From contig NZ_JACETV010000001.1 of the NCBI RefSeq assembly GCF_013912375.1, positions 1,488,001-1,552,000 of the forward strand: a stretch of 64,000 bases of DNA, in the 5' to 3' direction. Below the pieces are notes generated by a model that made no database searches, was not told the DNA's origin, and saw only the letters and a program-made list of their open reading frames with translations. Position numbers and translations under genes: made by a program. Below are positions 4,727-48,858 of the stretch, piece by piece. Position 1 is the stretch's first letter. Each line of letters opens with the position of its first letter. The stretch comes from Emticicia sp. BO119. Lineage in GTDB: Bacteria; Bacteroidota; Bacteroidia; Cytophagales; Spirosomataceae.

Positions 4727-4731
4727 TGGTT

Positions 4732-5808: not shown

Positions 5809-5908
5809 TTTTTATTAATTTAATTATTTCAAATCTGGCTTTAATTGTGGAAGATAAATGCGACTGAACCAAGCGCATATCTAACAACGTTTATTATTAA
5901 AAATATGT

Positions 5909-5938
5909 TTGACATTTTTACCTGTAAACGTAATTTTG
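5909..5938 (+). promoter_or_regulatory. Bacteroidota-type promoter (TTG-N19-TAATTTTG)
   Basis: A -33 TTG (5909-5911), 19-nt spacer and -7 TAATTTTG (5931-5938) match the Bacteroidota primary-sigma consensus TTG / TAnnTTTG exactly. Transcription would start near 5944, inside the longest open frame from 5845. The GTG at 5977 is therefore the better start for the downstream gene. Confidence 0.7.
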
Positions 5939-5976
5939 TTGCAATTTACTTACAATCATACGATAAAAAAAATACT

Positions 5977-31237: not shown

Positions 31238-31867
31238 TTAACTCAGTATAATTTTATTACTAAATTTATCTTTCAGACGCTGGTCATGTGTAACTATTAC
31301 CAATGCCGCACCAATACTTTTAGATTGGTTTTCAAGAAGGTTAATTACTTTATCACAATTTTCATCATCAAGATTCGATGTTGGTTCATCAGCAAGAATT
31401 ACGTCAGGATTATTCATTAGAGCTCGAGCAATGCTTACTCTCTGTTGCTCCCCACCACTTAAAAGTGTTGTCTTTTTGTCTAATAGTTCATAAAAACCCA
31501 GGCTCTTGGCTAATCGTACAGCCTGTTCTTTTGATAGAGGCTTTTCTGCCAGGTAATTAGCTAAAATCAGGTTCTCTAATACGCTTAATGAGCTCACAAA
31601 ATGAGATTTCTGATAGATGATACCTAAATGCGAAGCACGCATTTTTGTTGCTGCTTTAGGCTGTAATTTTGCAAACTCCTGATTGTTTATCTGAATCGAA
31701 CCGCTTTCAGGTTGAAGCAATAATGCCAGAAGGTGTAGAAGGGTAGTCTTTCCGGTGCCTGAATTTCCTAATATCAGAAGGGCATCACCTTGAGCACAGG
31801 AAAAGGATGGAAAACTGAATTTTCTTTGGGATTTATATGAAAATGCGAGATTTGAAACAGTAAGCAT
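31238..31867 (-). CDS. ABC transporter ATP-binding protein (LolD/MacB-type)
   Basis: A 209-aa nucleotide-binding subunit. It has the Walker A GNSGTGKTTLL (about 33-43), the ABC signature LSGGEQQRVSIARAL (about 136-150), the Walker B VILADEPTSNLD (about 155-166) and the switch His in VTHDQ (about 192-196). It is the first gene of the ATPase-permease-DUF3299 unit. A TATCTTTG -7-like element lies at 31884-31891 on the minus strand, but no matching -33 TTG is seen. It is too far from, and not co-oriented through to, the permease array at 33.4-48.2 kb to be its obvious partner. Confidence 0.93.
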   Translation of the reverse strand: MLTVSNLAFSYKSQRKFSFPSFSCAQGDALLILGNSGTGKTTLLHLLALLLQPESGSIQINNQEFAKLQPKAATKMRASHLGIIYQKSHFVSSLSVLENLILANYLAEKPLSKEQAVRLAKSLGFYELLDKKTTLLSGGEQQRVSIARALMNNPDVILADEPTSNLDDENCDKVINLLENQSKSIGAALVIVTHDQRLKDKFSNKIILS

Positions 31868-32050: not shown

Positions 32051-33343
32051 TTGAAAAAAAAACTGATTATTTCTTTTATTTTATTGCTGCTTGTTACTCT
32101 ATTGCAAGCCCAGACTTCTATTTATTATCTGAATAATACACCTGACATTGATGGCTTGGCTGATGACTGGGATATGCAAAAGGCAAAGCTTTTTCAATCT
32201 AAGGCCAAAAATGTATATTCAGTCAATCAGGCCAGGTATATTTTAGGTTTTGATGAACAAAATTTATATGGGTTGTTTCAGATTACGGATAGACATCTAA
32301 CAGATCTGGCATTAGATAAAAGTGGAAGCCCACGCCTGACTTTTAACGATGCCATTGAATTATACATTGACGCCAAAAATAATAGTAGACAGATAATGGA
32401 CGCCTCTGATTATCAGATTATTATTGATTTAAATAGCAATATAACTGTATTCAGAGGAGGTGATAGGTTTTTAGTACAAGTTGATGAAGCGTTAGTACCT
32501 AAAGATACAATAACTGCTAATTTTGTGATTGACGTAAAAACAACACATGAGGGAAGTCTGAATAATGGTAGAGATATTGATAATCAATATATTATAGAAT
32601 TCAGATTACCCTGGGCTTCATTAGGGGTTGTGCCTATTGAAGGGGAATTCTTTAAAATGGATATATGTTTTAATGATGCAGATGAATTTCTGGATATTAA
32701 ACCGCTGTCTGAAGGTGACCCGATTCCACATTATAGCTATGAAAGTATTACCGGAAATACGGATTTTGGTTATCCGGATAAATGGACAAAAGCTAAATTA
32801 GTTGGCCATTTATCATGGTGGAAAAAACTGAATGAAAAGTATGGGCATTATTGGTGGATATTATCACTAATAATTATTCTAATCTTTATTCCTGCAATTG
32901 TATATCTTTCAATATCAAATACTAACTTAAGGCACATACAGCCTAAGTCAGTTGAGGTTGATAGAAAACTGGGTTTGATTTTTTCTGAAGAAGACAAACA
33001 AAAAAAACAAGAGATAAACTCAGAGAAAGCATTTGTTAAAAATACCAGGCGGTTTATCTTACAGCAATTGGATAATGATATTACTCCAGCTGACTTAGCT
33101 TCGGAGTTAGGTATCAGCATACGTCAATTACAAAGAATCTTTAAAGAAGAACTCGATATTACGCCTAATGCCTTTATAACAACTTTAAAAATGGAAGCAG
33201 CTGCTTCAATGCTACAAGCTGAAGAAAGAAATATTTCGGAAGTTGCGTATGCCATTGGTTTTTCAGACCCAGCCTATTTTGCAAAAGTCTTTAAAAAATA
33301 TTTCAGGCAAAGCCCGAAAGAGTATATAAAAAACAAAACCTAA
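32051..33343 (+). CDS. Membrane-spanning AraC-family regulator with a CBM9-like exported sensor domain
   Basis: A 430-aa protein with an unusual layout. Residues 1-20 are a signal peptide (cleavage near LLQAQ). Residues 22-250 form a CBM9-like beta-sandwich (PDIDGLADDW, FNDAIELYIDAKN and YIIEFRLPWASLG are typical). A single TM helix spans about 266-288. A linker leads to a C-terminal AraC-type HTH pair (about 330-430) with SIRQLQRIFKEELD and the family signature FSDPAYFAKVFKKYFRQSP. The sensor would face the periplasm and the DNA-binding domain the cytosol, a one-component transmembrane design. The start is TTG 32051, the only option downstream of an in-frame stop that keeps the signal peptide. 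A carbohydrate ligand is inferred from CBM9. Confidence 0.88.
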   Translation: MKKKLIISFILLLLVTLLQAQTSIYYLNNTPDIDGLADDWDMQKAKLFQSKAKNVYSVNQARYILGFDEQNLYGLFQITDRHLTDLALDKSGSPRLTFNDAIELYIDAKNNSRQIMDASDYQIIIDLNSNITVFRGGDRFLVQVDEALVPKDTITANFVIDVKTTHEGSLNNGRDIDNQYIIEFRLPWASLGVVPIEGEFFKMDICFNDADEFLDIKPLSEGDPIPHYSYESITGNTDFGYPDKWTKAKLVGHLSWWKKLNEKYGHYWWILSLIIILIFIPAIVYLSISNTNLRHIQPKSVEVDRKLGLIFSEEDKQKKQEINSEKAFVKNTRRFILQQLDNDITPADLASELGISIRQLQRIFKEELDITPNAFITTLKMEAAASMLQAEERNISEVAYAIGFSDPAYFAKVFKKYFRQSPKEYIKNKT

Positions 33344-33417: not shown

Positions 33418-35820
33418 TTATTCCGTCTTTAAGCTTCTTACAGGATTGACCAATGCAGCTTTTATAGCCTGATAACTAACTGTTATAAGTGTAATCAATA
33501 TTGCACCTATACTTGCAACAACGAAAATCCACCAGGATATATCAGTTTTGTATGTATATTTTTGCAACCAATTATTCATGAAGTAATAGGCAACCGGAGT
33601 AGCAATCACTAAAGAAATACAAACCAATAGTACAAAATCCTTTGATAATAATTGCCATAAATTAAATACGGATGCTCCTAATACTTTTCTTACACCAATT
33701 TCTTTAGTTCGTTGTTCTGCCATGAAAGATGCTAACCCAAATAACCCGAGACACGAAATAAATATGGCTAATGAGGCAAAAATAGCTGCTAAAGTACCAA
33801 TTCGCTCTTCAGTAGCGAACTTAGCCGCAAATTCGCTATCTGCAAATTTGTAATCAAATGGGGCAGCTGGGATAATTTTCTTGAATATTTTCTCAATAAC
33901 CGCAATTGACTCACTTGCGCTTTTCTTAGGATTTAATTTAAGATTTATCCAGTTTGAATTGCCGTCGCTCAAAAAATAGATTGTTTGTTTTACGGGTTCA
34001 AAAGGAGATTCCATCACCATATCTTTTATTATACCGATAATTTTAAAATTGGGGTCTTTCTCATCAGTACCCCACTTGATTATTTTTCCGATAGGATCTT
34101 TTATACCCATAAATCGGATGGCAGCTTCATTTAAAACTATTGAAGAAGAATCAGTAGAAAAATTTTTAGATAAGTCTCGCCCTTCTTTAAATTGCCAGCC
34201 TACTGTTTTTCCAAAATTATGAGTTACCCATATTGTAGCAAAATCGGGCGTAAGGTTAGGGTCTTTCCCTTCCCAGTAAAACCCACCGTTATTTGACCAT
34301 ACACCTGTTAATGGACTTGAAGATTCAGCCATTTCTATAACTGCCCCTGAATTTTTTAATTCTCTCTGCAATACATCAAATTTGCCATAAAAATCAGGAG
34401 ATTTCTTTTGGATCATCATTAAGTTACTTCTATTATAACCTATCGGACGATTCTTAGTAAACTGTATTTGTGAATAGATGATAATAGTGCCGATGATTAA
34501 AGTGACTGAAACTGTAAATTGTAGAACCACCAGAACCTTACGGGGGATTGAAGCAAAACGTCCAACTTTAAAAGTTCCTTTCAATACTTTCACGGGTTGG
34601 AAAGATGATAAATAGAGGGCAGGATAACTTCCGGCAATAAAACCTGTAACGAGAATGAATAGTAGATTTAAAACCCAGAAATACGGATTACTCCAAAGTA
34701 AACTTATTTTTTTATCTGCAATTGTATTAAACCAGGGTAAACTGATTAACACCAAAATTATTGAGAGAATAAAAGCAAAGAATACAATCAGTAACGACTC
34801 GCTAAAGAATTGACTTATCAATTGAGTACGCAATGAACCAATTGCTTTCCGGATTCCCACTTCTTTGGCTCTTTTTTCAGATCTCGCAGTACTTAGATTC
34901 ATGAAATTAATACAAGCCAATAACAAAACAAAAATACCTACGACACCAAACAGCCAAACGTACTCAATTAATCCTCCTGATTTAACCCCGTTTTCCCAGT
35001 TAGACCTGAGATGCCAGTCGGCCATTGGATTCAGATAAATTTCTGCTTTAAATTTCTTCTCATCCTCCGGAACTCTGTTCAATTTTGCATTGAGAATACT
35101 TTTATCAACAGAAGCAAAATCAGTGTTATCCGCAATCTGGGCAAATAGCTGAAAGGAATTATTACCCCATTGGTTTTCATCACGCGCTCTTCTAACCCAA
35201 TCTTCCGAACTCACATATAACTCCCATGGAGCGATAAAAGTAAGATTTTTAAAGCGTGTATTATAGGGTAAATCCTTAAATACACCAGTTACTTTCACAT
35301 CTAATTTACTATCTATTCTAAGTGTTTTATTTAAAGGATCCGAATCCCCAAAAAAAGCTTTGGTAGTTGATTCAGATAATAAAATAGAGTTTGGATCTTT
35401 CAGCCCATCATGAGTACCATTTATCATTTCTAATGAAAATATCCTGGGGGCATCAATATCCATATAAACACCTGTTCTGGATAGTTTTGTGTCTCCCATT
35501 GTCAGAATATGGTCACCTACCCATGACGAATTGGCCAAGTACTTAAAATTACCACCATATTGTGTTCGTAATTCTTTCGCTAAAGGAAAAGGGATAGAGT
35601 TTTGTGAATATACTTGTCCGTTAGCGGTTTGATGCTGCATTACCTGTGCAATACGGTCATAGTTTTTATGATATTTGTCGTATGACAACTCGTCAAACAT
35701 CCAGAGGCCAATAAGCATGGCAACAGTCATGCCTGTGGCCAGCCCAAAAATGTTAATAAAAGAATATCCTTTGTGTTTCAAAAGGTTTCGGAATGCGATT
35801 TTAAAGTAATTGCTTATCAT
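33418..35820 (-). CDS. Fused FtsX/MacB-type ABC permease, array copy 1 (promoter-distal)
   Basis: An 800-aa inner-membrane permease made of two fused MacB/FtsX-like halves. Each half has one TM helix, a periplasmic core domain and three TM helices. Cytoplasmic coupling motifs follow the second TM of each half: EKRAKEVGIRKAIGS (about 313-327) and EQRTKEIGVRKVLGAS (about 700-715). It ends NPVRSLKTE, the shared terminus of the array. It starts MISNYFKIAFRNLLKHKGYS, nearly the same as copies 2 and 5. No ATPase is encoded in the array. The cargo is unknown; related transporters export peptides, antibiotics or lipoproteins, or work as mechanotransmitters. Confidence 0.9.
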   Translation of the reverse strand: MISNYFKIAFRNLLKHKGYSFINIFGLATGMTVAMLIGLWMFDELSYDKYHKNYDRIAQVMQHQTANGQVYSQNSIPFPLAKELRTQYGGNFKYLANSSWVGDHILTMGDTKLSRTGVYMDIDAPRIFSLEMINGTHDGLKDPNSILLSESTTKAFFGDSDPLNKTLRIDSKLDVKVTGVFKDLPYNTRFKNLTFIAPWELYVSSEDWVRRARDENQWGNNSFQLFAQIADNTDFASVDKSILNAKLNRVPEDEKKFKAEIYLNPMADWHLRSNWENGVKSGGLIEYVWLFGVVGIFVLLLACINFMNLSTARSEKRAKEVGIRKAIGSLRTQLISQFFSESLLIVFFAFILSIILVLISLPWFNTIADKKISLLWSNPYFWVLNLLFILVTGFIAGSYPALYLSSFQPVKVLKGTFKVGRFASIPRKVLVVLQFTVSVTLIIGTIIIYSQIQFTKNRPIGYNRSNLMMIQKKSPDFYGKFDVLQRELKNSGAVIEMAESSSPLTGVWSNNGGFYWEGKDPNLTPDFATIWVTHNFGKTVGWQFKEGRDLSKNFSTDSSSIVLNEAAIRFMGIKDPIGKIIKWGTDEKDPNFKIIGIIKDMVMESPFEPVKQTIYFLSDGNSNWINLKLNPKKSASESIAVIEKIFKKIIPAAPFDYKFADSEFAAKFATEERIGTLAAIFASLAIFISCLGLFGLASFMAEQRTKEIGVRKVLGASVFNLWQLLSKDFVLLVCISLVIATPVAYYFMNNWLQKYTYKTDISWWIFVVASIGAILITLITVSYQAIKAALVNPVRSLKTE

Positions 35821-35912
35821 GATTTTGTAAAGGTTAATAGAAAATGGAGAAAGGAATAAGGTTTAGGTAGCAAGGTTTTTACTTTCTCCATTCTCCGTAT
35901 TTCGTTCTCTAT
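35821..35912 (-). repeat. 92-nt spacer, duplicate of 38301-38392, with an 11-bp inverted repeat
   Basis: This spacer is identical to the one at 38301-38392 at about 83 of 92 positions (counted by eye) and has the same length. It contains a perfect 11-nt inverted repeat (35843-35853 with 35882-35892). Confidence 0.75.
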
Positions 35913-38300
35913 CTAATCAGTTTTTAATGATTTCACAGGATTCATTGATGCTGCTTTGATGGATTGATGGCTGACTGTGATTAAGGTTATTAATAATGTA
36001 CCAAAGCCTGCTGCAACAAAAACCCACCAGGAAATTTCGATTCTATAGTTATATTTCTGCACCCAATTATTCATAAAATAGTAAGCAATTGGGGTTGAAA
36101 TGATAAATGAGAGGAATATCAGAATCATAAAATCTTTTGATAATAGACCCCATAAATCCAGAATAGTTGCACCTAATATTTTTCTGATGCCAATTTCTTT
36201 GGTGCGTTGCTCGGCCATAAAAGAAGCTAAGCCAAAAAGCCCAAGGCATGAAATAAAAATAGCAAAGATGGTGAAGAAAAATGCTAATCGCCCTATACGT
36301 TCTTCATTGGCAAATTTCTGATTATAGGCCAAATCGGCAAATTCATATTCAAATGGAACTGATGGAACAAGTTTTTTAAATACTGCTTCAATTTTAGGTA
36401 AAGCCTCAGCTGCAGCAATTGCAGGATTCAATCTCAAATTGATGAAATAGTGATATTTTTCAAGAGTGAAAATAGTGGGGATGGTAGCTTCATAAGGTGA
36501 GCTTGTTATCATGTCTTTGGTTACTCCGATAATTGTAAAGAATTTATTTCTTCTCTTCCATTCAACTAATTGCCCTATAGGATTTTCTAATCCCATATAT
36601 TTAACCGCAGCTTCATTAATGATGATACCAGACGAATCACTGTTAAAATCTCTTGAAAAATCCCTTCCTTCTTTCATTTGCCAGCCGATGGTTTTACCAT
36701 ACTCCGGGGTAATACATAAAGTACTGAATTGTTCTTGCATTGATGGATTCTTGCCTTTCCACGAAAATCCACCTACACTTGACCTGTTTTCAGTTACTTT
36801 ATACTCAGATTCTGATATTTCTACCACTGCTCTGGTATTTTTCAGTTCAGTTCTTAGTAAATCGTATTTTCCTTTATAATCTTCCGTCTTTTTCTCAATT
36901 ACCAGAAGCCCGTTTGGAGTATAACCAACGGGTCTGTTCTTGGAGTAAATTATTTGCTGATAAATAACAATTGTATTCAGAATCAGTGTGATAGAAACAA
37001 TAAATTGAAAAACAACCAGAAATTTTCGAGGAGACGAAACAAAATTCCCGATATGCAAAGTGCCTTTTAAGACCTTAATTGTTTGGAAAGAAGAAAGATA
37101 AAAAGCAGGATAGCTTCCGGCAATAATACTCGTAAAACTAATAAACAAACTACAACCCAGCCAGAACCAAAGATTATTCCAGGGCATATATATTTGTTTG
37201 GTAGCAATAGTATTGAAGAATGGTAAAGCCATGCTTGCTAGTAACAGTGCTATTAAAAAAGCAAAAATTACGATTAGGAATGATTCACTGAAAAACTGAA
37301 TAATTAATTGGCTTCTTAATGAACCTATGGCTTTTCTGACACCCACTTCTTTTGCCCGTTTTTCACTACGAGCCGTACTCAGATTCATAAAATTGATGCA
37401 GGCCAACAATAAGATAAAAATGCCTATACTACCCACCAACCACACGAATCTCATCGGTCCTTTTTCTATTGTTCCGTTTTTAAAATCTGAATACAAATGC
37501 CATTTTTCCATAGGGTGCAAAAATACATTCGATTTGTATGCACCAGACTCATGTCTGCTTTGTGCATCTTTTACTCTTGTCGAAATAGTTTCAAAAGCAT
37601 TAGCGTCAATCTCTCCTTTTGTTTGAATCTGGGTGTAGATATTGACGAAGTTATTAGTCCAGCCTTGTTCCATTATCCATTCATTATGAGCAATGTATAA
37701 ATCGAAAGGGGCAAAAAACTTGGTTTCGGTCAGTTGGGTATTTAATGGTAAATCTTCATAAACACCTGTTACCTTCACATCCATTTTATTATTGATTTTT
37801 ACCAACCGATTGATTGGGTCTTTCTCACCAAAGAGGGACTTGGCTGTTGATTCAGCTAATAAGATTGAATGTGGGTCTTTTAAGCCATCCCACGAACCTT
37901 TCAACATTTTCAAAGAAAACATTTGAGGTGCTTGAGTTTCTGTAAACTGACCTTTTCTTGAAAGTTTTACCTCACCGCTTGCTAATACGTATTCTGCCAA
38001 AGGCAAGACAGCCACCAGGTTTTTGAATTGACTGCCGTAATTTGCTTTCAATTCATCACTTAAAACATAAGGTACATAATCGGTATTGAAGGTCTCACCA
38101 TTCAAGTTGATGCTACGCATCACTTTTGCAATGCTTTTATAGTTTTTATGATATTGATTAAAACTCAATTCATCATAAACCCATAAGCCAATTAGTATAG
38201 CCACAGCCATTCCGGTAGCCAACCCAAAAATATTAATGAAAGAATATCCTTTGTGTTTCAAAAGGTTTCGGAACGCGATTTTAAAGTAATTGCTTATCAT
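35913..38300 (-). CDS. Fused FtsX/MacB-type ABC permease, array copy 2
   Basis: A 795-aa paralogue with the same two-half layout. I set the start at 38300, where the protein begins MISNYFKIAFRNLLKHKGYS exactly as copy 1. The longer frame from 38339 adds 13 residues encoded by the spacer repeat, absent from all other copies. Coupling motifs are EKRAKEVGVRKAIGS and EQRTKEIGIRKILGAT, and the end is NPVKSLKTD. Its N-terminal ~40 residues and flanking spacer are nearly the same as those of copy 1, showing a recent duplication or conversion of this segment. Confidence 0.9.
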   Translation of the reverse strand: MISNYFKIAFRNLLKHKGYSFINIFGLATGMAVAILIGLWVYDELSFNQYHKNYKSIAKVMRSINLNGETFNTDYVPYVLSDELKANYGSQFKNLVAVLPLAEYVLASGEVKLSRKGQFTETQAPQMFSLKMLKGSWDGLKDPHSILLAESTAKSLFGEKDPINRLVKINNKMDVKVTGVYEDLPLNTQLTETKFFAPFDLYIAHNEWIMEQGWTNNFVNIYTQIQTKGEIDANAFETISTRVKDAQSRHESGAYKSNVFLHPMEKWHLYSDFKNGTIEKGPMRFVWLVGSIGIFILLLACINFMNLSTARSEKRAKEVGVRKAIGSLRSQLIIQFFSESFLIVIFAFLIALLLASMALPFFNTIATKQIYMPWNNLWFWLGCSLFISFTSIIAGSYPAFYLSSFQTIKVLKGTLHIGNFVSSPRKFLVVFQFIVSITLILNTIVIYQQIIYSKNRPVGYTPNGLLVIEKKTEDYKGKYDLLRTELKNTRAVVEISESEYKVTENRSSVGGFSWKGKNPSMQEQFSTLCITPEYGKTIGWQMKEGRDFSRDFNSDSSGIIINEAAVKYMGLENPIGQLVEWKRRNKFFTIIGVTKDMITSSPYEATIPTIFTLEKYHYFINLRLNPAIAAAEALPKIEAVFKKLVPSVPFEYEFADLAYNQKFANEERIGRLAFFFTIFAIFISCLGLFGLASFMAEQRTKEIGIRKILGATILDLWGLLSKDFMILIFLSFIISTPIAYYFMNNWVQKYNYRIEISWWVFVAAGFGTLLITLITVSHQSIKAASMNPVKSLKTD

Positions 38301-38392
38301 GATTTTGTAATGGTTAATGGAAAATGGAGAAAGGAACAAGGTTAAGGTAGCAAGGTTTTTACTTTCTCCATTCTTCGTATTCTTTTCTATAT
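38301..38392 (-). repeat. 92-nt spacer, duplicate of 35821-35912
   Basis: It has the same length and near-identical sequence to the spacer between copies 1 and 2, including the ATGGAGAAAG/CTTTCTCCAT inverted repeat. The similarity continues across the stop codon into the 3' ends of copies 2 and 3. Confidence 0.75.
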
Positions 38393-40777
38393 CTAATCAG
38401 TTTTTAATGATTTCACAGGATTCATTAATGCTGCTTTGATGGATTGATAGCTTATGGTTAGAAAAGCGATGACAATAGCTAAAATTCCTGCAATGCAGGG
38501 CATCCACCATTCTATTTCAATGCGATAGGCGAAATCTTTTAGCCAGATATCCATTAAATACCAAACAAGAGGAATCGTGATGATGAATGAAATGAAAACT
38601 AACTTGATAAACGAACCTGAAAGTGTATAAACTATTTGCTGGATCGATGCGCCTAATATTTTACGGATTCCTATTTCTTTTATGCGTTGTCGGATAACAT
38701 AAGATGAAAGCCCAAACAACCCTAAACAAGCCAGAAGAATGGTAATTGCTGAGAAAACCGAGAAAACTTTTCCAATTCTTTTTTCTGCTTCATACATATT
38801 CTGAAAATCATCATCCAAAAAGTGATATTCTAATGGACGATGAGGAGCTACGATTTTCCATTTTTGGGCAATATGATTTAAAGTTTGCTGCATATCATTG
38901 GCATTTGATTTGATGAGCAACGTTCTTCCAAAGTTCGCTGGATAAAGTACCAATGGTTCAATGGTATTGTGTAAGGAAGCAAAATTAAAGTCTCTCAATA
39001 CACCTTTTACCTCTCCGGGACGCCAATCACCTAAAAATATCTTTTTACCTATAGCTTCCTGAGGTTTCCAACCCAATTGTCTGGCTGCAGATTCATTGAT
39101 AAGGAAATGGAAATATGGTTCTTTTTCACGAGAGGCATCAAGTAGATCCTGATGGTTTAGGTCTTCACCTGCAATCAATTTCAGTCCATTTACTTTTACA
39201 TATTCTTCATCTATTTTGTTCCCTCGGGTATTCATAGCTTTTTCAGCCGTCTGGTCTCCTCTGAACATCGTATGTCCCCCCGGAATACTTACAGGAGTAT
39301 AATTGGTCTGGCTTATATGAATTATATTAGGGTTCTCTTTCAACTCATTTTTCATGGCATCAATTTTCTCAACAATCTTGCTGTCAATCGCAGCAACAAT
39401 CACCTGTTCACGGTTATACCCCATATTTTTGTTTTGAATGAATTGCAGTTGACTATTAATAACAATGGTACAGGCAATCATAAATATGGAAATGAAAAAC
39501 TGGAATACGATGAGCCATTGCTTGAGACCACTACCCGTTGTTGTGTTTTTAAATGCCCCTTTTAATACTTTGATAGGTTTAAAATTAGATAAAACCAGCG
39601 CAGGATAACTTCCGGCCAGAAGTGAAATAATTAATAAAATGCTTAAAAGCGACAGAAGAATAACAGGAGAGCTTATTTCAGAAAAAGCCAGTGATTTATT
39701 GCTTAATTGATTGAAATAAGGCAAAGTAGCGCTAACTAAAGCAACACTAAGTAAACATGAAATAAAAGTTATGATTGAAGATTCACTAATAAATTGCCAG
39801 AAGAGTTGTCTTTTAACTGCCCCTACTACTTTGCGTATTCCTACTTCTTTCGAGCGTTCCACAGACTTGGCAGTGCTGAGATTGATAAAAGTAAAACAGG
39901 CTATCAGCAAAACTAATATAGCAACTCCACTCACCATATAAATATATTTGATGTCACTATTGGCTTCAAAACCACTATACGGCGAATAAAGATGTACGCT
40001 CGTTAAAGGTTCTAATTGATAATTAATATAAGTACCAATTTGTTTAGCCATTTCCTTAGCCATGAAAGGTTTGATTTTGGCTTGGAGGGTAGGTATAGAA
40101 GAGGCATCTTTTAATAGTAGATAAGTATAATCATTTGCATCGAAATAGGTTTCTTCCTGAGCTGGACCTAAGGAAGAAAGAGAAGCCACGAATGTATATT
40201 TTATTTGTGAGTTAGCGGGCGGGTCTACAGAAACTCCGGTTACCAGATAGGGTTCTCTGTCACTACTGATTAGCAATGTCTTGCCCACAGGGTCTGAATT
40301 ACCAAAGTATTTCTTTGCCATTGAGGCAGTAATTACTATTTGCTTCGGTTTGTCTAAAACCTGTCTGGCATTGCCTTGCAATAATTTAAAATCAAAAACG
40401 CTGAAAAAAGTAGAATCGGCAAAGACAAAGCCCTCTTCATTAAAGAGGTGTTCGCCATAATTAACTACTCTGTTTACATCCGCTATTCGCACCCCACTTT
40501 CTATTTCGGCAAAGTTTCTTTTAAACGAAGGTAATACTTTGGTGCTTGTAAAATTGCCTTTCGTCGGCTCGCTTTCACCAAAGCTATACTCCATAATTAC
40601 CCGCACAATGCGGTCTTTTTTGCTATGAAACTGGTCATAAGATAGCTCATGCCTGATGAACATAATCATCAATAGACACGAAGTGATACCCACTGTGAGA
40701 CCTCCCACGTTGATAAGAATAAAAGACGGATTCTTAACAATATTTCGCCATGCGATTTTAAAATAGTTTTTAAGCAT
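38393..40777 (-). CDS. Fused FtsX/MacB-type ABC permease, array copy 3
   Basis: A 794-aa permease of the same type but more diverged (start MLKNYFKIAWRNIVKNPS). The coupling motifs are VERSKEVGIRKVVGA and RQRIKEIGIRKILGAS, and the end is NPVKSLKTD. The periplasmic domains differ strongly from copies 1, 2 and 5, while its 3' end is nearly identical to copy 2, consistent with gene conversion at the ends. The spacer to copy 4 is 89 nt. Confidence 0.9.
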   Translation of the reverse strand: MLKNYFKIAWRNIVKNPSFILINVGGLTVGITSCLLMIMFIRHELSYDQFHSKKDRIVRVIMEYSFGESEPTKGNFTSTKVLPSFKRNFAEIESGVRIADVNRVVNYGEHLFNEEGFVFADSTFFSVFDFKLLQGNARQVLDKPKQIVITASMAKKYFGNSDPVGKTLLISSDREPYLVTGVSVDPPANSQIKYTFVASLSSLGPAQEETYFDANDYTYLLLKDASSIPTLQAKIKPFMAKEMAKQIGTYINYQLEPLTSVHLYSPYSGFEANSDIKYIYMVSGVAILVLLIACFTFINLSTAKSVERSKEVGIRKVVGAVKRQLFWQFISESSIITFISCLLSVALVSATLPYFNQLSNKSLAFSEISSPVILLSLLSILLIISLLAGSYPALVLSNFKPIKVLKGAFKNTTTGSGLKQWLIVFQFFISIFMIACTIVINSQLQFIQNKNMGYNREQVIVAAIDSKIVEKIDAMKNELKENPNIIHISQTNYTPVSIPGGHTMFRGDQTAEKAMNTRGNKIDEEYVKVNGLKLIAGEDLNHQDLLDASREKEPYFHFLINESAARQLGWKPQEAIGKKIFLGDWRPGEVKGVLRDFNFASLHNTIEPLVLYPANFGRTLLIKSNANDMQQTLNHIAQKWKIVAPHRPLEYHFLDDDFQNMYEAEKRIGKVFSVFSAITILLACLGLFGLSSYVIRQRIKEIGIRKILGASIQQIVYTLSGSFIKLVFISFIITIPLVWYLMDIWLKDFAYRIEIEWWMPCIAGILAIVIAFLTISYQSIKAALMNPVKSLKTD

Positions 40778-40866
40778 ACCCCTAACCCCTAAAGGGAGAT
40801 TTAAGTTAAAAGATATTTATAGTTGACCCCACAAATTTCCCATTATTGGCCAAGGGATGGGGCTCA

Positions 40867-43242
40867 TTACTCCGTTTTCAAACTTTTCACAGGATTCATT
40901 AAAGCTGCCTTTATACTTTGATAGCCAACGGTTATAAAAGCTATCAGTATGGACAGACCTCCGGCTGCTGCAAATATCCACCATTCAATATCAATCCGAT
41001 AGACAAAGCCTTGCAGCCATTGATTCATAAAATAATAGGCAATTGGACCAGCTATAACGATTCCGATTAAAACGAGTTTTAGGAAATCTTTGGATAATAA
41101 ACCAGTAATGCCAATAACTGATGCCCCTAAAACCTTTCTGATACCAATTTCTTTGGTTCTGCGCTCGGCAGTAAAAGTAGCAAGTCCAAACAGGCCAAGA
41201 CAACAAATAAAAATGGCTGTGAAGCTAAAAATACTTATCATTTCTAATGAACGTTTTTCCCTCCAGAATTTTGATTCAAGTTCATAATCTGCAAATTTGA
41301 TATTAAGAGTGGCTTCAGGATCAAACCTTTTAACTATTTTTTCAATGCGGCTTACAGCTTCGTTAACCGATAGATTTTCGGTTAATTTTAAAGTAATAAA
41401 TGGAGCATTGGCCAGTCTCATAAAGAAGATTGTTGGCTTGGCATTATCATAAGGAGAGTCAAAAATGATATCCTTGGCAATACCAACTATTGCATATCTG
41501 TTTCCGCTGAATTCGATATACTCATTCAATGGATTCTTAAAACCAATCAATTCGGCAGCTGATTTATTCAGAATTACACTCGCGGTATCTGTTTTGAATT
41601 TTCGATCAAAGTCTCTCCCTTGTGAAATTTTCCAGTTTACAGTTTTACCAAACTCAGGTGTTACTATTACTTCACCAAAGCTGTCTGAACTATTTTCAGG
41701 TTTTCCACGCCAACTGATTCCAGATTGATTGTGCCAGTTTTCTGCCAGTGGTGTATTCATTTCTGCCATTTCTTTAACTGCCCCTGAGGCTAATAACTGT
41801 TCACGCATAGCCCAGAAATGCCCTCTCAAACCCGGAGTGTTTTTCTGTATTTGTATCAGGCGGTTTTTATCGTAACCCATCGGGCGATTCATGCCATATT
41901 TGAGTTGTTGACTTATAACCAACATGGAAACAAGCATCATTACCGAAATAGTAAATTGAAAAACCACTAATGTTTTCCTTAACAAAACTTCTTTACCAGA
42001 GCCAATTCGTAAACCTTTTAATATTTTTATAGGATTGAAAGATGATAAATAGAGAGCAGGGTAAATACCTGCCAACAATGTAATAATTGCAAGAGCAGAG
42101 AAAAATTTCAATATAAAAGTTGTGTCTATAAGGTTAAATTCAATTTTTATTGCAGTCAATGTATTAAACCAGCCTGCAAATAATTGCACTAAAAATAAGC
42201 TTATAATACCTGCAATAAATACTAATAAGGCAACCTCTGCATAAATCATTTGTAGTATGCCTTTACGACTTGAGCCTATGGCCTTTCGTACGCCGATCTC
42301 CTTAGCTTTTATGCTAGCTCTGGCTGTAACCAAGTTTACAAAATTAATGATAGCCAACAAGAGAATCAGAATACCAATACCTGCAAAAATCAGTATATTA
42401 TTAAGACCTGAGCCTACCGCTTTGCCATTTTCAAAGGCTGGGTAAAGTCTCCATTTCGACATCGGATGAATAAATACTTCTGGTTGAGATTTATCATCTG
42501 TGTGTGGCAATAAAATCTTTGCAATGGTTTTTGAAACTACGTCAAAATCGGTATTGCGAGCTAATTTTATGTAAATCGGGAATGACTGTTCCTCCCATCT
42601 GGTCTTTGAGTTTCTTACCCATTCTTCCATATTGGCAAATGCTTCAAAATCAGCGTAGAAATCGACATTCCTGAAGGTTGAATTCAATGGGAAGTTTTTA
42701 TAAACCCCGACAACTTTCAAATTGGCCTTAGAACTCAAGTTGATTATTTTGCTGACCGGGTTTTCTGTTCCAAATAGGGCGGAGGCGGTTTTTTCACTTA
42801 TCAGAATAGAAGTTGGGTCTAGTGGAAAAGTCGGTGAGCCTTTAATTATTTGTAAGTCAAGAATTTTGTGTCCACCTTTCTCCATAAAATAACCCCTTTT
42901 TATGGCCGAGGCTTCTTTATATTTTAAGGATTGTTCACCCCCAAATGAAGATACCACCACTTCATCAAAATATTGTCCGTATTCATTTCGTAGTGTTGCA
43001 CCAAGCAGAATAGAGTTAGATTCTGTAGTGTTAACGCTTCCGTTATATATTAAGTTTTTCTGTATTAATCCTAATCGATCATAATTTTGATTATAGGTAT
43101 TAAACTCCAGTTCACTTATTACCCAGAAACTGATAATCAAAGCAGCGGCAAAGCCTACGCTCAATCCTGCTACATTAAGAATACTATAAAGTCTGTTTTT
43201 TAAAAGACTTCTGAGTGCGATTTTAAAATAGTTTTTAAGCAT
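40867..43242 (-). CDS. Fused FtsX/MacB-type ABC permease, array copy 4
   Basis: A 791-aa permease (start MLKNYFKIALRSLLKNRLYS) with two MacB/FtsX halves. The coupling motifs are SIKAKEIGVRKAIGSS and ERRTKEIGIRKVLGAS, and the end is NPVKSLKTE. The first periplasmic domain is distinct from those of its neighbours. It is separated from copy 5 by a 101-nt spacer that holds a long imperfect inverted repeat. No ATP-binding site motif is present in the protein. Confidence 0.9.
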   Translation of the reverse strand: MLKNYFKIALRSLLKNRLYSILNVAGLSVGFAAALIISFWVISELEFNTYNQNYDRLGLIQKNLIYNGSVNTTESNSILLGATLRNEYGQYFDEVVVSSFGGEQSLKYKEASAIKRGYFMEKGGHKILDLQIIKGSPTFPLDPTSILISEKTASALFGTENPVSKIINLSSKANLKVVGVYKNFPLNSTFRNVDFYADFEAFANMEEWVRNSKTRWEEQSFPIYIKLARNTDFDVVSKTIAKILLPHTDDKSQPEVFIHPMSKWRLYPAFENGKAVGSGLNNILIFAGIGILILLLAIINFVNLVTARASIKAKEIGVRKAIGSSRKGILQMIYAEVALLVFIAGIISLFLVQLFAGWFNTLTAIKIEFNLIDTTFILKFFSALAIITLLAGIYPALYLSSFNPIKILKGLRIGSGKEVLLRKTLVVFQFTISVMMLVSMLVISQQLKYGMNRPMGYDKNRLIQIQKNTPGLRGHFWAMREQLLASGAVKEMAEMNTPLAENWHNQSGISWRGKPENSSDSFGEVIVTPEFGKTVNWKISQGRDFDRKFKTDTASVILNKSAAELIGFKNPLNEYIEFSGNRYAIVGIAKDIIFDSPYDNAKPTIFFMRLANAPFITLKLTENLSVNEAVSRIEKIVKRFDPEATLNIKFADYELESKFWREKRSLEMISIFSFTAIFICCLGLFGLATFTAERRTKEIGIRKVLGASVIGITGLLSKDFLKLVLIGIVIAGPIAYYFMNQWLQGFVYRIDIEWWIFAAAGGLSILIAFITVGYQSIKAALMNPVKSLKTE

Positions 43243-43245
43243 ATA

Positions 43246-43341
43246 GGAAAGGGGTAAGGGAGAAAGCAGAAAGGGACAAGGAGATGAGTCTTAAAGAAAA
43301 AGATTTTTATTGCTTTTTCCTTTCTCCTTATTCCATTTTCC
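43246..43341 (-). repeat. Imperfect inverted repeat filling the copy 4/5 spacer
   Basis: Arms of about 29 nt (43246-43274 with 43312-43341) are purine-rich (GGAAA..GGAGAAAG type) and resemble the inverted repeat in the 92-nt spacers. It could be a REP-like element or a transcript-stabilising hairpin. Confidence 0.5.
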
Positions 43342-43343
43342 AA

Positions 43344-45725
43344 CTACTCCGTTTTTAATGACTTTACCGGATTCATTAGCGCAGCTTTGATAGCCTGAAA
43401 ACTTACAGTTAAGAGGGTTATTAATAAAGCTCCTAAACTGGCTGCTGCAAAAATCCACCACGAAATATCGGTTCGGTAAGTATATTTCTCAATCCATTGG
43501 CTCATGAAATAATAGGCTATAGGAGAGGCAATGAAAAGAGAAATCAGAACTAATACTATAAAGTCTTTAGATAATAACCGCCATAAATTAAACACTGAAG
43601 CCCCTAATACTTTTCTTACGCCAATTTCTTTTGTGCGTTGTTCAGCCACAAAAGAAGCTAAACCAAATAGACCTAAACAACTGATGAAAATTGCTAAGAT
43701 GGCAAAGAAGGTAGCTAACTTGCCGATACGTTCTTCGTTGGCAAATTTCTTGTTGTAATCCTCGTCAACAAATTGATATTCAAATGGTTGGGTAGGATTG
43801 TATTCCTTAAAGGTAGCTTCTAATCTATCAATGGCCTCTTTGGCACTTGACGCCGAATTTATTTTGGCAAGTACAACCGAACCTGCTTCACCTAAAGCGA
43901 AATAAACCACCGGTTTCACAGGTTCATACGGCGACTGGATGACTATATTTTTAGCTACGCCAATTACCTTATAAGGTCTGTCAAACCATTTGATTGTTTC
44001 GCCAACAGGATTTTGTAGTCCCATAAACTTTACTGCAGCCTCATTAAGTACTAATCCTGACGAATCAGATGCAAAATCTCTGGAAAAATTACGACCTTCT
44101 TTAAATTGCAAGCCTATAGTTTTGGCATAGTCATAAGATATACCACACATTGCAATATCAACAGGCATATTAGGATCTTTACCTCTCCAGTCAAATCCGC
44201 TCGAAGTGCCCCATACATTTGTGGTTGGACTACTACTTTCAGCCATTTCTATAATAGCACCCGATTCTACTAAATCGCGCTTTATTGCATCAAAATGCTT
44301 ATGAATCTCATTCGTGCCAATATAAAAAGAAACCAGACCGTTGGTTTCATAGCCTAAGGGGCGGTTTTTAGCAAACTGAATCTGTTTAAATATAACAATA
44401 GTTCCAATGATTAAAGTAACTGAAACAGAAAACTGCATTACTACCAATACCTTACGCGGGATAGAGGCAAAACGGCCTACGCTAAAAGTACCTTTTAAGA
44501 CTTTAATTGGCTGAAATGAAGATAAATAAAAGGCGGGATAGCTACCTGCAATAAAACCTGTCAGTACGCAGAATCCTAAACAAGCCAGCCAGAATGGTGT
44601 GCTTGTCCATAAAATATTCATTTTTTTGTCAGCAATTTCATTAAATGCCGGCAAGCTCAATTGCACAAATATCAAAGACAATGTAAATGATAGAATCACA
44701 ACTAATAAGGATTCACTAAAGAACTGTAAAATTAGCTGAACCCTGACAGAACCAATGGCTTTTCTGATACCTACTTCTTTGGCACGTTTTTCACTACGGG
44801 CGGTACTCAGATTCATGAAATTTATACAGGCCAATAGCAATACAAAAATGCTGATGATGCCAAATAGCCATACATATTGAATACGTCCACCAGTATTTAC
44901 TCCATTTTTATATTCAGAATACAAGTGCCAGCGACTCATAGGTAACAAAAAGAGTTCAGGCTTCTTTTTAGCCAAAGTCGGATTTACTTTCTTCAATTTA
45001 GCATCTCTTATTTTGAAAGAAACTTTGTCAATATCAGCATTATCATTCAATTGTGTATAAATCTCAAAGGCGTTGGGTCTCCAGGGGTCTGTCATGGATT
45101 TCAATCCGGCATTAGTATATAATAATTCCCAGGGAGCCATAAAGGCAACTTCACCAAAAGAGGTATTCTTAGGTAAATCTTCATAAACTGCCGTTACTTT
45201 TACATTCATATCATTATCAATTTTTATGATTTTGTCAATCGGGTCTGCCTCTCCGAAAAAGACTTTTGATAATGATTCTGATAAAATAACAGAATTTGGC
45301 TCATTGAGCCCATTTTTATTGCCTTTTATGATATTTAAGCTTAGCAAGTCAACAATGCCTGGTTCAAAGAAAGTCCCTGTTTTGTTAACAATGGTTTCAC
45401 CTTTCGTTAACGTATGAAAGCCGTTCTGAGATGAAAGGATAATGTGTTTGAAATCGGCTCCATAATTTTTACGGAGTTCTTCCGCTAATGGATAAGGGAC
45501 TTGCGTTTGAGTACTTACGCCACCATTATTTGTCAGGTTTTGCATTACCTGTGCAATACGGTTATAGTTTTTATGATATTTGTTAAATGACAATTCATCA
45601 TAAACCCATAACCCAATTAGTATGGCTACAGCCATTCCGGTTGCTAAACCAAGAATATTAATGGTTGAATAACCTTTATACTTCAAAAGGTTTCTTAATG
45701 CGATTTTGAAATAGTTTATTATCAT
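43344..45725 (-). CDS. Fused FtsX/MacB-type ABC permease, array copy 5
   Basis: A 793-aa permease closely related to copies 1 and 2 (start MIINYFKIALRNLLKYKGYS, shared INILGLATGMAVAILIGLWVYDE-like first TM). The coupling motifs EKRAKEVGIRKAIGS and EQRTKEIGVRKVLGAS match copy 1, and the end is NPVKSLKTE. It sits between the more diverged copies 4 and 6, so the related copies 1, 2 and 5 are not all adjacent. The array has therefore been rearranged or converted, not just extended at one end. Confidence 0.9.
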   Translation of the reverse strand: MIINYFKIALRNLLKYKGYSTINILGLATGMAVAILIGLWVYDELSFNKYHKNYNRIAQVMQNLTNNGGVSTQTQVPYPLAEELRKNYGADFKHIILSSQNGFHTLTKGETIVNKTGTFFEPGIVDLLSLNIIKGNKNGLNEPNSVILSESLSKVFFGEADPIDKIIKIDNDMNVKVTAVYEDLPKNTSFGEVAFMAPWELLYTNAGLKSMTDPWRPNAFEIYTQLNDNADIDKVSFKIRDAKLKKVNPTLAKKKPELFLLPMSRWHLYSEYKNGVNTGGRIQYVWLFGIISIFVLLLACINFMNLSTARSEKRAKEVGIRKAIGSVRVQLILQFFSESLLVVILSFTLSLIFVQLSLPAFNEIADKKMNILWTSTPFWLACLGFCVLTGFIAGSYPAFYLSSFQPIKVLKGTFSVGRFASIPRKVLVVMQFSVSVTLIIGTIVIFKQIQFAKNRPLGYETNGLVSFYIGTNEIHKHFDAIKRDLVESGAIIEMAESSSPTTNVWGTSSGFDWRGKDPNMPVDIAMCGISYDYAKTIGLQFKEGRNFSRDFASDSSGLVLNEAAVKFMGLQNPVGETIKWFDRPYKVIGVAKNIVIQSPYEPVKPVVYFALGEAGSVVLAKINSASSAKEAIDRLEATFKEYNPTQPFEYQFVDEDYNKKFANEERIGKLATFFAILAIFISCLGLFGLASFVAEQRTKEIGVRKVLGASVFNLWRLLSKDFIVLVLISLFIASPIAYYFMSQWIEKYTYRTDISWWIFAAASLGALLITLLTVSFQAIKAALMNPVKSLKTE

Positions 45726-45727
45726 AA

Positions 45728-45799
45728 AGCTCCTAACCCCTAAAGGGGGACTTGTTTTAAATTATAGATAGATTTTTCCTAAACTCCCCTTTTGGAGCT
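45728..45799 (-). repeat. Inverted repeat in the copy 5/6 spacer
   Basis: AGCTCC at 45728-45733 pairs with GGAGCT at 45794-45799. Just inside, TAAAGGGGGA (45741-45750) pairs in part with CTCCCCTTTT (45784-45793). A similar CCCCTAAAGGG core appears in the copy 3/4 spacer (about 40787-40797). Confidence 0.5.
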
Positions 45800-45807
45800 G
45801 AGCGTGA

Positions 45808-48204
45808 TTACTCCGCTTTTAAAGATTTTACAGGATTTGTTAATGCGGCTTTGATAGATTGATAGCCGACTGTAGCAACCGCCACTGCAATTATTAACAC
45901 ACCAATAATTGCATAAAACCACCATTCGATGTTAATATGGTAAGCAAAGTCCTGCAACCATTTATTCATAAAATAGTAGGAGAGGGGACACGCCACAATA
46001 AAGGCAATGCCAACCAGTTTTAAAAAGTCACTTGAAAGCAAGACGGTAATACTTGTTACAGAGGCTCCTAAAACCTTGCGGACACCAATTTCTTTGGTAC
46101 GTTGTTCTGCCGCAAAAGCAGCTAAACCAAATAAACCCAAGCAGGAAACAAAGATGGCAACTATAGCAAAGGCATTGAATAATGTGGCAATGCGTTGCTC
46201 GGTATTGTAAAGCCTGTCATAAGTATCATTTAAAAAATGATACTCTAATGGGCGGCTTGGAATAAATTCGGCCCATAGTTTTTCAGTTGAGGTAATTGCC
46301 TCCTTTTCTTTCCCTTTTACTGGCTTTACATATACTCCACCCCGCCAGTTATCCTCGCTAAAAATTACCAGAGGGCCTATTTGTTCGTGCATACTTTTAA
46401 AATGGAAGTCTCTGACAACGCCTAAAATTATACCCTTACGGCCATGAAGGTGAAAACGCTTGCCTACAGGCTTCTTTATTCCGAATTTTTTTACTGCTGT
46501 CTCATTAAGCACAACATTTTCTTTATCGGCTAAATTGTTTTCTCCAAACCAGTGCCCTGCGGCCATTTTTAATCCAAAAACTTTCTGATAATTATGTTCA
46601 ACTGATAATTGAGAGACTGTGGGCTGAAAGTCTTCAGGGCGACCATCCCAGTCTAAACTACCGCTATGCGTACTTTTGATATCCACTATATTCTGGCTGG
46701 CAGTAGTTATGGATTCAATGCTTGATTCTGTCAGTAAACGGCTTTTTATTGTATTAATATCAATTTTAGATTTAATATTCCATGGAATCGAAAACTCAAA
46801 CATATTGGCTTTTTCATAGCCTAATTTTACATTTTGAATAAATTTTATCTGTTGAAATACCACCAGTGTAGCAATCAGAAAAACAGATGAAACCACAAAC
46901 TGAACAACTACCAAAGTTTTTCGGAATGAACTATTGTTTGATTTCAAAATGTTAAAACCTCTTAAAGCCCGGATTGGCTGAAAGGAGGAAAGTAGGATGG
47001 CGGGATAAATTCCAGTTAAAAGTATGGCTAAAAAAGTAGTACCTAAAAGCACAAGCCAAAGTGTGGTATCAGTCAGGTTAAGAGTAAAATGTTTATCAGC
47101 TAACTCATTGAAAAAAGGTAATAAACTGTAAACTAAACATAAGGCTATACCCAATGCTACCATACACATCAAAACCGACTCCACCATAAACTGGATAAAA
47201 AGCTGTGAATATTCAGCCCCGATAATCTTTTTAACACTTACTTCTTTGGCTCTCAGGCTTGCTCTTGCAGTCGCTAAATTTACATAGTTGATACATGCAG
47301 TAAACAAAATAATAAAAGCAAGTGCTAAGAAGATATAAGTAGTTTTTGCATCACCCTTTGGTATGTCATTAGAACGGTCCACACCATCCATATGAATGGC
47401 TGTAATTGGTTCAGTTAAAAGTGTTACATTGTCTTCAATCTTTCCTGTTTTGGGGTCTTTTCTTGCTAATTGCAGAATTCTGGTAATCTTCTGGTCTAAT
47501 TTTGAAAGATTGACATTAGGCTTGACCAATACAAAAGTTTCATAATTAAAGTTGCCCCAATTGCTATCATTTTCAAAGGTTTTAGGATTCGATAAATAAG
47601 CCGCCATTGGCATTAGAAAATCATACTGAAAACTCGAATTAGTAGGGTTGTCTTTAAAAACAGCTCTTACCATATAATCAAGTGTATCAATTTTGATGAT
47701 TTTTCCACTTACCTTAATGTCTCCAAATAATTGAATCGCCTTTGATTCAGTCATCGCGATGCTTCTCAGATTTTTGCCAAACTCTGTAAAATCCCCATCA
47801 ATCAAATCATAATCAAATACATTAAACCAGTTATTATCAACACAGGCCACTTTCTTTTCAATGGATAACTTATTTCCAATTTTCATAGGAGCACCATTCC
47901 AGAAAGGTCTGACAGTACGTGTAACTTCCTCTGCTTCAGGTAGTTGTTTCAACTGTTCAGCTAACAACATAGGTGTGGTTGACCAAATCCATGTTTCTTC
48001 CTTGTTTACTTTATTATGCGTAATAATTTGTCGAATTCTATCTGATTTTATATGATAAGTATCAAAACTTAATTCGTTCTGAACCCAAATCAACATGAGT
48101 ACAGCCACAGCCATACCAACAGCTAAGCCGCCTATATTTATGAGAGAAGAAACCCGGTTTTTGAACAGGTTTCTAAGGGTGATGGTGAGGTAATTGCGTA
48201 TCAT
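45808..48204 (-). CDS. Fused FtsX/MacB-type ABC permease, array copy 6 (first after PadR)
   Basis: A 798-aa permease (start MIRNYLTITLRNLFKNRVSS) and the most diverged copy. The second coupling motif is standard (EQRTKEIGVRKVLGAS), but the first is SLRAKEVSVKKIIGA, with the usual G-(I/V)-R-K changed to S-V-K-K. The end is NPVKSLKAE. It follows the PadR gene by 89 nt, so it is likely the first permease of the transcript. Layout and length match the other copies. Confidence 0.9.
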   Translation of the reverse strand: MIRNYLTITLRNLFKNRVSSLINIGGLAVGMAVAVLMLIWVQNELSFDTYHIKSDRIRQIITHNKVNKEETWIWSTTPMLLAEQLKQLPEAEEVTRTVRPFWNGAPMKIGNKLSIEKKVACVDNNWFNVFDYDLIDGDFTEFGKNLRSIAMTESKAIQLFGDIKVSGKIIKIDTLDYMVRAVFKDNPTNSSFQYDFLMPMAAYLSNPKTFENDSNWGNFNYETFVLVKPNVNLSKLDQKITRILQLARKDPKTGKIEDNVTLLTEPITAIHMDGVDRSNDIPKGDAKTTYIFLALAFIILFTACINYVNLATARASLRAKEVSVKKIIGAEYSQLFIQFMVESVLMCMVALGIALCLVYSLLPFFNELADKHFTLNLTDTTLWLVLLGTTFLAILLTGIYPAILLSSFQPIRALRGFNILKSNNSSFRKTLVVVQFVVSSVFLIATLVVFQQIKFIQNVKLGYEKANMFEFSIPWNIKSKIDINTIKSRLLTESSIESITTASQNIVDIKSTHSGSLDWDGRPEDFQPTVSQLSVEHNYQKVFGLKMAAGHWFGENNLADKENVVLNETAVKKFGIKKPVGKRFHLHGRKGIILGVVRDFHFKSMHEQIGPLVIFSEDNWRGGVYVKPVKGKEKEAITSTEKLWAEFIPSRPLEYHFLNDTYDRLYNTEQRIATLFNAFAIVAIFVSCLGLFGLAAFAAEQRTKEIGVRKVLGASVTSITVLLSSDFLKLVGIAFIVACPLSYYFMNKWLQDFAYHINIEWWFYAIIGVLIIAVAVATVGYQSIKAALTNPVKSLKAE

Positions 48205-48293
48205 AATTTTGAGAGGGAAAAGATTAGTATGGGTTATAAGGGTAATGTTTAGTAATAGCTATAGAATAAAGCCTTCAGGCAAATTCAGTGGTG

Positions 48294-48632
48294 TTATATG
48301 CTTATAGTAGCTAAACTTTGCGGTGGAATGGAATCCCACATCCGGTTGCGTAAAAGTCGAATCTCGTCGAGGGTGCGATTGCCTAAAGTTGTTACTGAAA
48401 ACAATCGTTTACGTCGTCCACCTCGTTCGGCAGTAGCCTCTCCCATATGAGAACTTAACATATTCTTTTCTTCTAAGCGGTTTAAAGCTGCATGAACGGC
48501 ACTAATACTAAGTGAACGCCCCGTTTGTTGTTCGATTTCTTCTGTAATAGCTACTCCATAAGCACCATCGCCTAATATGGCGACCGTCAGTAAAACAATT
48601 TCTTCAAATTCCCCTAAATAGGTTCTTCGCAT
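48294..48632 (-). CDS. PadR-family transcriptional regulator
   Basis: A 112-aa winged-helix regulator with the PadR N-terminal domain: YLGEFEEIVLLTVAIL, GAYGVAITEEIEQQTGR, and the recognition region SISAVHAALNRLEEKNML, then the wing with ERGGRRKRLFSVTTLG. It is at the head of the permease array on the same strand, so it probably represses or senses for the array. PadR genes paired with duplicated FtsX-type permeases are known from Acidobacteria. The effector is unknown. The 276-nt region upstream shows a CAAATTTA (minus-strand TAAATTTG) -7-like element at 48701-48708 without a well-spaced -33. Confidence 0.92.
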   Translation of the reverse strand: MRRTYLGEFEEIVLLTVAILGDGAYGVAITEEIEQQTGRSLSISAVHAALNRLEEKNMLSSHMGEATAERGGRRKRLFSVTTLGNRTLDEIRLLRNRMWDSIPPQSLATISI

Positions 48633-48858
48633 AATGGTTTTATATGAATCAGGTTTAAATAAAATTAACTGACGAAATAAGTTATGTGGAAGGAAAGAAA
48701 CAAATTTAAACCGGCTCCATGTCTGTATCAGTTGAACAAATGATATGCCAAGCCCAAAACTGAATAAAAACAGAGTGATTTTGATGTTTTTTTTAAATTT
48801 TAGTGTCCGAAATCGTACAGTTGGCTTGTCCGATACCGTACATGTTTTATAAATAAAA

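Follow-up and report, generated by a model that had tools for sequence, protein, structure and literature searches.

Control DNA suggests that an orphan array of MacB/FtsX permeases in Emticicia sp. BO119 borrows an ATPase made elsewhere in the genome

An orphan permease array

Type VII (MacB/FtsX) ATP-binding cassette (ABC) permeases would be expected to have their ATPase partner in the same protein or array, but we describe here an array that has none, in which six fused permeases lie behind a PadR-family regulator gene in Emticicia sp. BO119, within the 64-kb stretch of DNA analysed here (hereafter the window, meaning the whole stretch; its genome is G000). The array is a conserved member of a large family of orphan permeases, and its control DNA suggests that it borrows an engine made elsewhere in the genome. 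The most likely explanation, to which we give moderate credence, is that a DarD-like ATPase belonging to the same regulon powers the permeases in trans, a reading built on sequence comparisons within this genome, in a genus set of 11 Emticicia genomes and in 98 genomes of the order.

The array spans positions 33418–48204 on the minus strand and consists of open reading frames (ORFs) of 800, 808, 794, 791, 793 and 798 aa, here called P6 (33418–35820), P5 (35913–38339), P4 (38393–40777), P3 (40867–43242), P2 (43344–45725) and P1 (45808–48204), with the 112-aa PadR gene (48294–48632, minus strand; domain score 33.3 bits, cut-off 27) at its head. All six ORFs are full length, and each product carries two MacB_PCD and two FtsX stretches over curated cut-offs; positions and duplicated domains thus agree with the first-pass annotation of this DNA, which had read six fused double permeases after a PadR gene. 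P5 opens with a TTG codon; read instead from the ATG that follows in frame 13 codons on, it is a 795-aa protein that aligns with its neighbours. As had also been claimed, the array holds no ATPase gene, since none was found by ORF list and domain search within the array or among the ORFs at 33418–48632. An AlphaFold model of P1 (798 aa, predicted local distance difference test score 84.3), the only one searched with Foldseek against the PDB, had as top matches YbbAP of E. coli (9ge6, E = 1.2 × 10−19) and MacB (5gko, E = 1.6 × 10−14; also 5nik). By domain (all six) and by fold (P1), the array permeases are type VII ABC permeases. YbbP was solved in complex with its ATPase YbbA, as the entry title YbbAP says, and in MacB a single chain includes both permease and ATPase (PMC5985334), whereas the array has no ATPase gene. 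PMC5985334 also describes YbbP-type fused permeases, and its main text does not use the word 'orphan'.

A palindrome shared with ATPase units elsewhere in the genome

Upstream of the PadR gene lie, in this order, two 16-bp palindromes and then TGGCATATCATTTGTTC, at a distance of 69 bp from where the second palindrome starts. Site 1 (TGTACGGTATCGGACA; 48827–48842, minus strand), a putative activator site kept in the orthologous loci of G001, G002 and G008 and in the sister arrays L006, L103 and L104, is 23 bp from site 2 (TGTACGATTTCGGACA; 48804–48819, minus strand). The TGGCAT that starts 69 bp after the start of site 2 belongs to a sigma-54-like promoter element (TTGGCATATCATTTGTTC; 48734–48751, minus strand), the TTGGCATATCATTTG of which is identical in all seven aligned promoters. 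Within the window, such palindromes occur only upstream of PadR.

The exact palindrome TGTNCGNNNTCGGACA occurs seven times in the 6.57-Mb genome, each time upstream of a permease array or an ATPase unit. Two copies (sites 1 and 2) precede the window array, one precedes each of two other PadR arrays, one lies between an adaptor-ATPase operon and a divergent gene for an NtrC-type response regulator (C12:887264–888616; domains Response_reg, Sigma54_activat and HTH_8), and two lie at an orphan pair of ATPase and TolC-type genes. Allowing one mismatch added 14 places (strands merged), eight of them upstream of permease units, five inside ORFs of 120–494 aa and one intergenic by a sugar-hydrolase gene. 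This last place (G000:C3:152379–152394), upstream of a 3-keto-disaccharide hydrolase gene, may be chance or a further regulon member.

Across the 11 genus genomes we counted 42 exact palindromes, all in eight genomes and none in the other three, against seven in the reversed control of all 11. Forty of the 42 are upstream of permease, PadR or ATPase units, including one each in G003, G004, G006 and G007 about 2.9 kb before a related ATPase, and one G004 site assigned by gene sizes at a contig end; palindromes 250–330 bp before PadR in G001 and G002 overlap mechanical ORFs of the other strand. A gene of ~825–859 aa, in two pieces in G004, stands between palindrome and related ATPase at L156, L157, L159 and L161 (G007, G003, G006 and G004, respectively). 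The remaining two palindromes are at the start of an unrelated 295–299-aa ORF (L155, ~5334, in G007; L160, ~5297, in G006) and perhaps mark regulon members.

Read locus by locus, the palindrome is present at the adaptor-ATPase promoter in 7/7 genomes (in G006 as an exact copy on the opposite strand), at the ATPase-TolC pair in 4/4 (G000, G001, G002 and G008) and likewise in 4/4 at the window locus, including G002, which has permeases there and no PadR. No site with at most one mismatch was found near four other related ATPases in 16 loci (four genomes, both strands), save one intragenic. The palindrome stands at the ATPase promoter even in G003, G006 and G007, genomes that lack this type of PadR; therefore, it is not just a PadR operator. 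We consider it a putative binding site of the NtrC-type regulator, and the downstream element a putative promoter of the sigma-54 type.

The same layout recurs at PadR loci of the order, sampled non-randomly as the best 80 of 553 by PadR similarity plus the loci from Emticicia genomes, with the duplicates L102 and L104 (contigs of L021 and L022) and L090 (the same as L105) left out of the counts. With at most two mismatches each, 91 of 103 PadR promoters have the palindrome, 74 the sigma-54-like element and 71 both, compared with 2, 7 and 0 when the promoters are reversed, and the commonest spacings between the two are 69, 79 and 68 bp.

DarD-like ATPases as the candidate shared engine

A search with the six window permeases found 62 such proteins in the genome: the window six, 26 in one array on contig C12, six in each of three further PadR arrays, one in each of five PadR loci and seven singles without PadR. 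The first-pass annotation had proposed a genome-wide look for ATPases beside similar permeases, and this turned up the C12 array, which contains a few other genes and has an adaptor and a DarD-like ATPase (C12:890293) at its head. The other 36 of the 62 have no ATPase heading their own unit and are orphans; an ATPase lies ~1.6 kb from the single permease C22:236653, on the other strand.

The best NCBIfam match of the big-array ATPase is the darobactin-export ATPase DarD (286 of 375 bits) and that of the adaptor is DarC (193 of 450 bits), both below the cut-offs; unlike in the darobactin exporter DarBCD, a single ATPase here leads an array with 26 permeases. Another DarD-like ATPase (C12:111684; 252 bits) adjoins an outer-membrane efflux (TolC-type) gene, and the 9 kb read around it contain no permease. 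Just upstream of this pair, on the same strand, are pentapeptide-repeat and Toastrack (DUF4097) genes (L020 5552–7466; G000:C12:112552–114466), and Toastrack is also a partner in the HAAS-PadR paper (PMC11237479).

Occurrence of the big-array ATPase follows that of the permeases. Its orthologues (89–100% identity) are found in the same eight of 11 genus genomes that have the palindrome, which carry 62, 53, 43, 20, 15, 7, 6 and 5 permeases, while the other three have no permeases, no big-array ATPase and no exact palindrome. Among the 98 order genomes (thresholds E ≤ 1 × 10−85 for the ATPase and E ≤ 1 × 10−100 for permeases), the ATPase is present in 35 and permeases in 48; all 35 ATPase-bearing genomes have at least one permease, and 0/50 permease-less genomes have the ATPase (Fisher P = 4 × 10−16). 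In addition, the big-array ATPase has the lowest nonsynonymous divergence (dN) of seven related ATPases in 3/3 species comparisons (0.006, 0.000 and 0.013 against G001, G008 and G002; other ATPases 0.011–0.111).

The permeases' presumed contact surface is compatible with a common partner. Mean identity among all 62 is 55% and 71% in the two coupling-helix segments, against 25% in both periplasmic domains; between window and big-array permeases the two segments share 55% and 72%, and within the big array 55% and 69%. The suggestion that the periplasmic parts vary more than the membrane parts thus stands between paralogues, but it fails between orthologues, for which the ratio of nonsynonymous to synonymous substitution rates (dN/dS) showed no consistent difference, with both kinds of domain at ~0.03–0.07 (dS near saturation). 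The further idea of different ligands on one shared engine fared likewise: a shared engine elsewhere is plausible from the common palindrome, the co-occurrence and the alike coupling helices, but the periplasmic parts do not evolve faster between orthologues.

Taken as a mechanism, the array would be one transcription unit of a genome-wide permease regulon, in which the palindrome is common to permease arrays and to two units with a DarD-like ATPase each, accompanied in one by an adaptor and in the other by a TolC-type channel. The NtrC-type response regulator, whose gene lies divergently next to the adaptor-ATPase operon, would bind the palindromes and turn on permeases and engine together; each fused-dimer permease would take up a trans-made ATPase dimer via its two coupling helices, and ATP would move its two periplasmic domains, as in MacB and other type VII transporters. 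The six periplasmic parts may serve different ligands, and the PadR gene is kept at the head, but the prefix that would tie the permeases to PadR (see below) is absent. Shared ABC ATPases have a precedent in other bacteria (the MsiK type), for which we found no paper. We found no answer in the open-licence literature on what drives orphan permeases or why there are so many, and a shared promoter code tying them to two ATPases makes the energy question testable.

Several observations weigh against a trans-acting engine and should be considered here. Co-regulation and co-occurrence do not amount to binding. The association across the order ignores ancestry, and only ~10 permease and ~30 ATPase candidates were scored per genome, which limits the permease counts. 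With the threshold applied here, the ATPase is missing from thirteen of the 48 genomes with permeases, twelve of which have one permease copy listed and one (G090) three. The dS of the big-array ATPase is also low against G001 and G008 (~0.3), and its conservation may in part be due to codon bias or recent exchange. On the promoter side, the one-mismatch scan was no richer than its reversed control (27 rows each), so that only the positions of those sites count as evidence, and the −12 half of the element is TTTGT, not the TTGC of the sigma-54 consensus.

The neighbouring ATPase

A closer candidate is the LolD-like ATPase gene at 31238–31867 (minus strand), which adjoins a half-size FtsX permease gene (29956–31185, minus strand) and might drive the array as well as that permease. 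It lies beside the array in 4/4 species where both were read, with the AraC-type gene between them in three, and in G002 its own strand carries two permeases ~0.2 kb upstream, no gene intervening. Nevertheless, we judge this unlikely. The ATPase, LolD/FtsE-like and under the cut-offs of the 25 NCBIfam models shown, has orthologues in all 11 genus genomes (74–88% identity), with the half-size permease adjoining in 8/8 genomes read and no array beside it in the flanks read in G003, G006, G007 and G009. Being present in all 11 genomes, mostly without the array, it is probably not the array's engine. Furthermore, the half-size permease lacks the array's coupling-helix motif (best match 6 of 20 positions), and the window's palindromes are confined to the PadR promoter. 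The view that this ATPase forms a separate unit with its own permease, already put forward in the first-pass annotation, is therefore upheld.

PadR and the N-terminal prefix

The window array differs from its sister arrays in how its permeases begin. The N-terminal prefix perm_prefix_2 (NCBIfam NF038404; 62 positions, scored over 35 bits) occurs on 23 permeases in the genome, which are all 23 PadR-linked ones outside the window, and profile search found it on none of the other 39, including the window six, the N-termini of which were also read. The perm_prefix_2 transporters of Cytophagales loci have the same core, PadR head and promoter architecture as the window array; they carry the prefix, as do the other PadR-linked sets here, but the window six do not. 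All 23 prefix matches are in frame with permeases, and no stand-alone prefix gene was found in the genome. Of the 103 distinct PadR units, 98 are followed by one or more complete permeases (those truncated at locus ends being left out of prefix counts); 95 bear the prefix on at least one, seven of these being mixed, and the three wholly prefix-less units are the window and its two orthologues. The same three stand apart in their control DNA: a GTTCTACAAAAGTT-type box, a putative PadR operator, precedes the gene in 10/10 loci of the closest relatives of the window PadR other than its orthologues (74–83% identity; at most 4 of 22 mismatches) and was not found at the window PadR or its two orthologues (8–10 of 22 mismatches).

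These findings bear on whether the permeases act without ATP, as sensors signalling through PadR. In PMC11237479 and PMC12419801, HAAS fused to FtsX/MacB proteins, together with PadR, is proposed as an alternative two-component system. PMC11237479 describes pairs of HAAS and PadR, among them some with HAAS joined to an FtsX/MacB protein, and places HAAS always in neighbourhoods with PadR. As in that dyad, the window's PadR is stand-alone and sits beside FtsX/MacB proteins; however, the dyad has HAAS fused to the membrane protein, whereas the window six have no domain-size N-terminal extension. With the prefix absent from all six, and the coupling helices among the best conserved permease parts, a sensor role of this kind appears improbable to us.

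The prefix seems to belong to the locus rather than to the permease. Over 93 PadR loci with 173 prefix-bearing permeases, prefix identity was 75.6% within a locus and 42.2% between loci, against 38.9% and 35.4% for the core, and prefix and core identity within loci were uncorrelated (r = 0.004). When a quick tree is built from the cores only, prefix status takes 19 changes (shuffled mean 19; well-supported branches force 13), while in the tree of prefixes each of the three arrays forms a group of its own (bootstrap 66–90). Prefixes thus resemble each other within a locus where cores do not, and their presence is randomly spread over the core tree, so that the prefix looks locus-bound; conversion of prefixes within a locus and replacement of cores both fit. 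PadR identity tracks the prefix (r = 0.72) over the core (0.35; partial correlation 0.68; 0/2000 permutations as high). Inside this genome PadR-prefix coevolution was unsupported (r = 0.33 with the prefix and 0.42 with the core; 8 loci, 28 pairs), so the order-wide values may rest on orthologous loci shared between species. A tentative reading, for which we would go slightly short of even chances, is that the prefix is a locus-specific address tag that stays with the locus and its PadR while sensor/transporter cores of ~800 residues swap between loci, one PadR reading many different cores that bear the same tag, and that the window lineage is without the tag and without the box of its closest PadR relatives, its array being run by the shared activator and engine alone and its PadR free to act elsewhere, e.g., at the sister array. 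If true, a protein of which two portions have unlinked histories would be an uncommon way to achieve many-input signalling, and we regard the prefix pattern as a more novel lead than the trans engine.

The prefix is predicted to form three helices (predicted local distance difference test score 71.6). Looking for a likeness to HAAS gave no significant match: among eight prefixes the best Pfam E-value was 0.15, to unrelated families (search up to E = 10), and a fold search against the PDB gave no match at E = 0.001. At the PadR locus L107 (G001:C32:226001–233500, ~3276–5965), a short prefix frame with one TAA inside the match precedes a prefix-less 835-aa permease, a possible snapshot of prefix loss.

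Conservation and history of the locus

At the orthologous locus, G001 and G008 carry PadR, an AraC-type gene and four permeases, against six permeases in the window, and G002 carries two permeases but neither PadR nor the AraC-type gene. P1 has orthologues in G001, G008 and G002, P2 in G001 (with a 68% relative in G002), P3 in G001 and G008, and P6 in G008; no close same-locus counterpart was found in these three genomes for P4 (best 34%) or P5 (best 56%). PadR is 92% and 90% identical to its orthologues at L101 and L102. Since membership of the array thus differs between species, it could be a decaying set of duplicates. We think this highly unlikely, as all six ORFs are full length and the dN/dS between orthologues is 0.05–0.06 for P1, P2, P3 and P6 and 0.04–0.07 for PadR, low values indicating that these permeases and PadR are kept by selection, an argument that covers P1, P2, P3, P6 and PadR.

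Two simple accounts of the array were rejected. One was that the copies arose by a single tandem expansion, but the window six are scattered over the tree of 62 (6 changes for the window label; shuffled mean 5.8), and their same-locus relatives number two or four. A rule of exactly six permeases, suggested by all four PadR arrays here having six, fails on sizes elsewhere, with prefix-copy clusters in G001 and G015 and PadR units with one to seven complete permeases.

A likeness to sets of PadR with acidobacterial duplicated orphan permeases (ADOP; TIGR03434) had also been noted. It stands insofar as these are likewise fused permeases of ~800 aa that match the window six over their full length, with a PadR adjoining, but both curated cut-offs are missed by far: the six reach 245–281 bits against 622.3, and the window PadR 31.7 bits against the 101.8 of padR_acidobact (TIGR03433).

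Within the array, the spacers at 35821–35912 (before P6) and 38301–38392 (before P5) are almost identical, and P5 and P6 share their first 31 residues, counting from the ATG in P5; together these point to a recent exchange of 5' ends. Beyond its end, a gene for a CBM9 and AraC-type helix-turn-helix regulator (32051–33343, plus strand) is at the locus in 3/4 array-bearing species, those with PadR here, and missing from G002. Two loci, each of PadR and a single permease, flank a 3231-aa ORF at L010 6162–15857 (C1:739162–748857). Finally, the window has at 20503–27798 a 2431-aa ORF, which we liken to SprA, adjoining a 197-aa gene (28009–28602) that we take to be ruvA.

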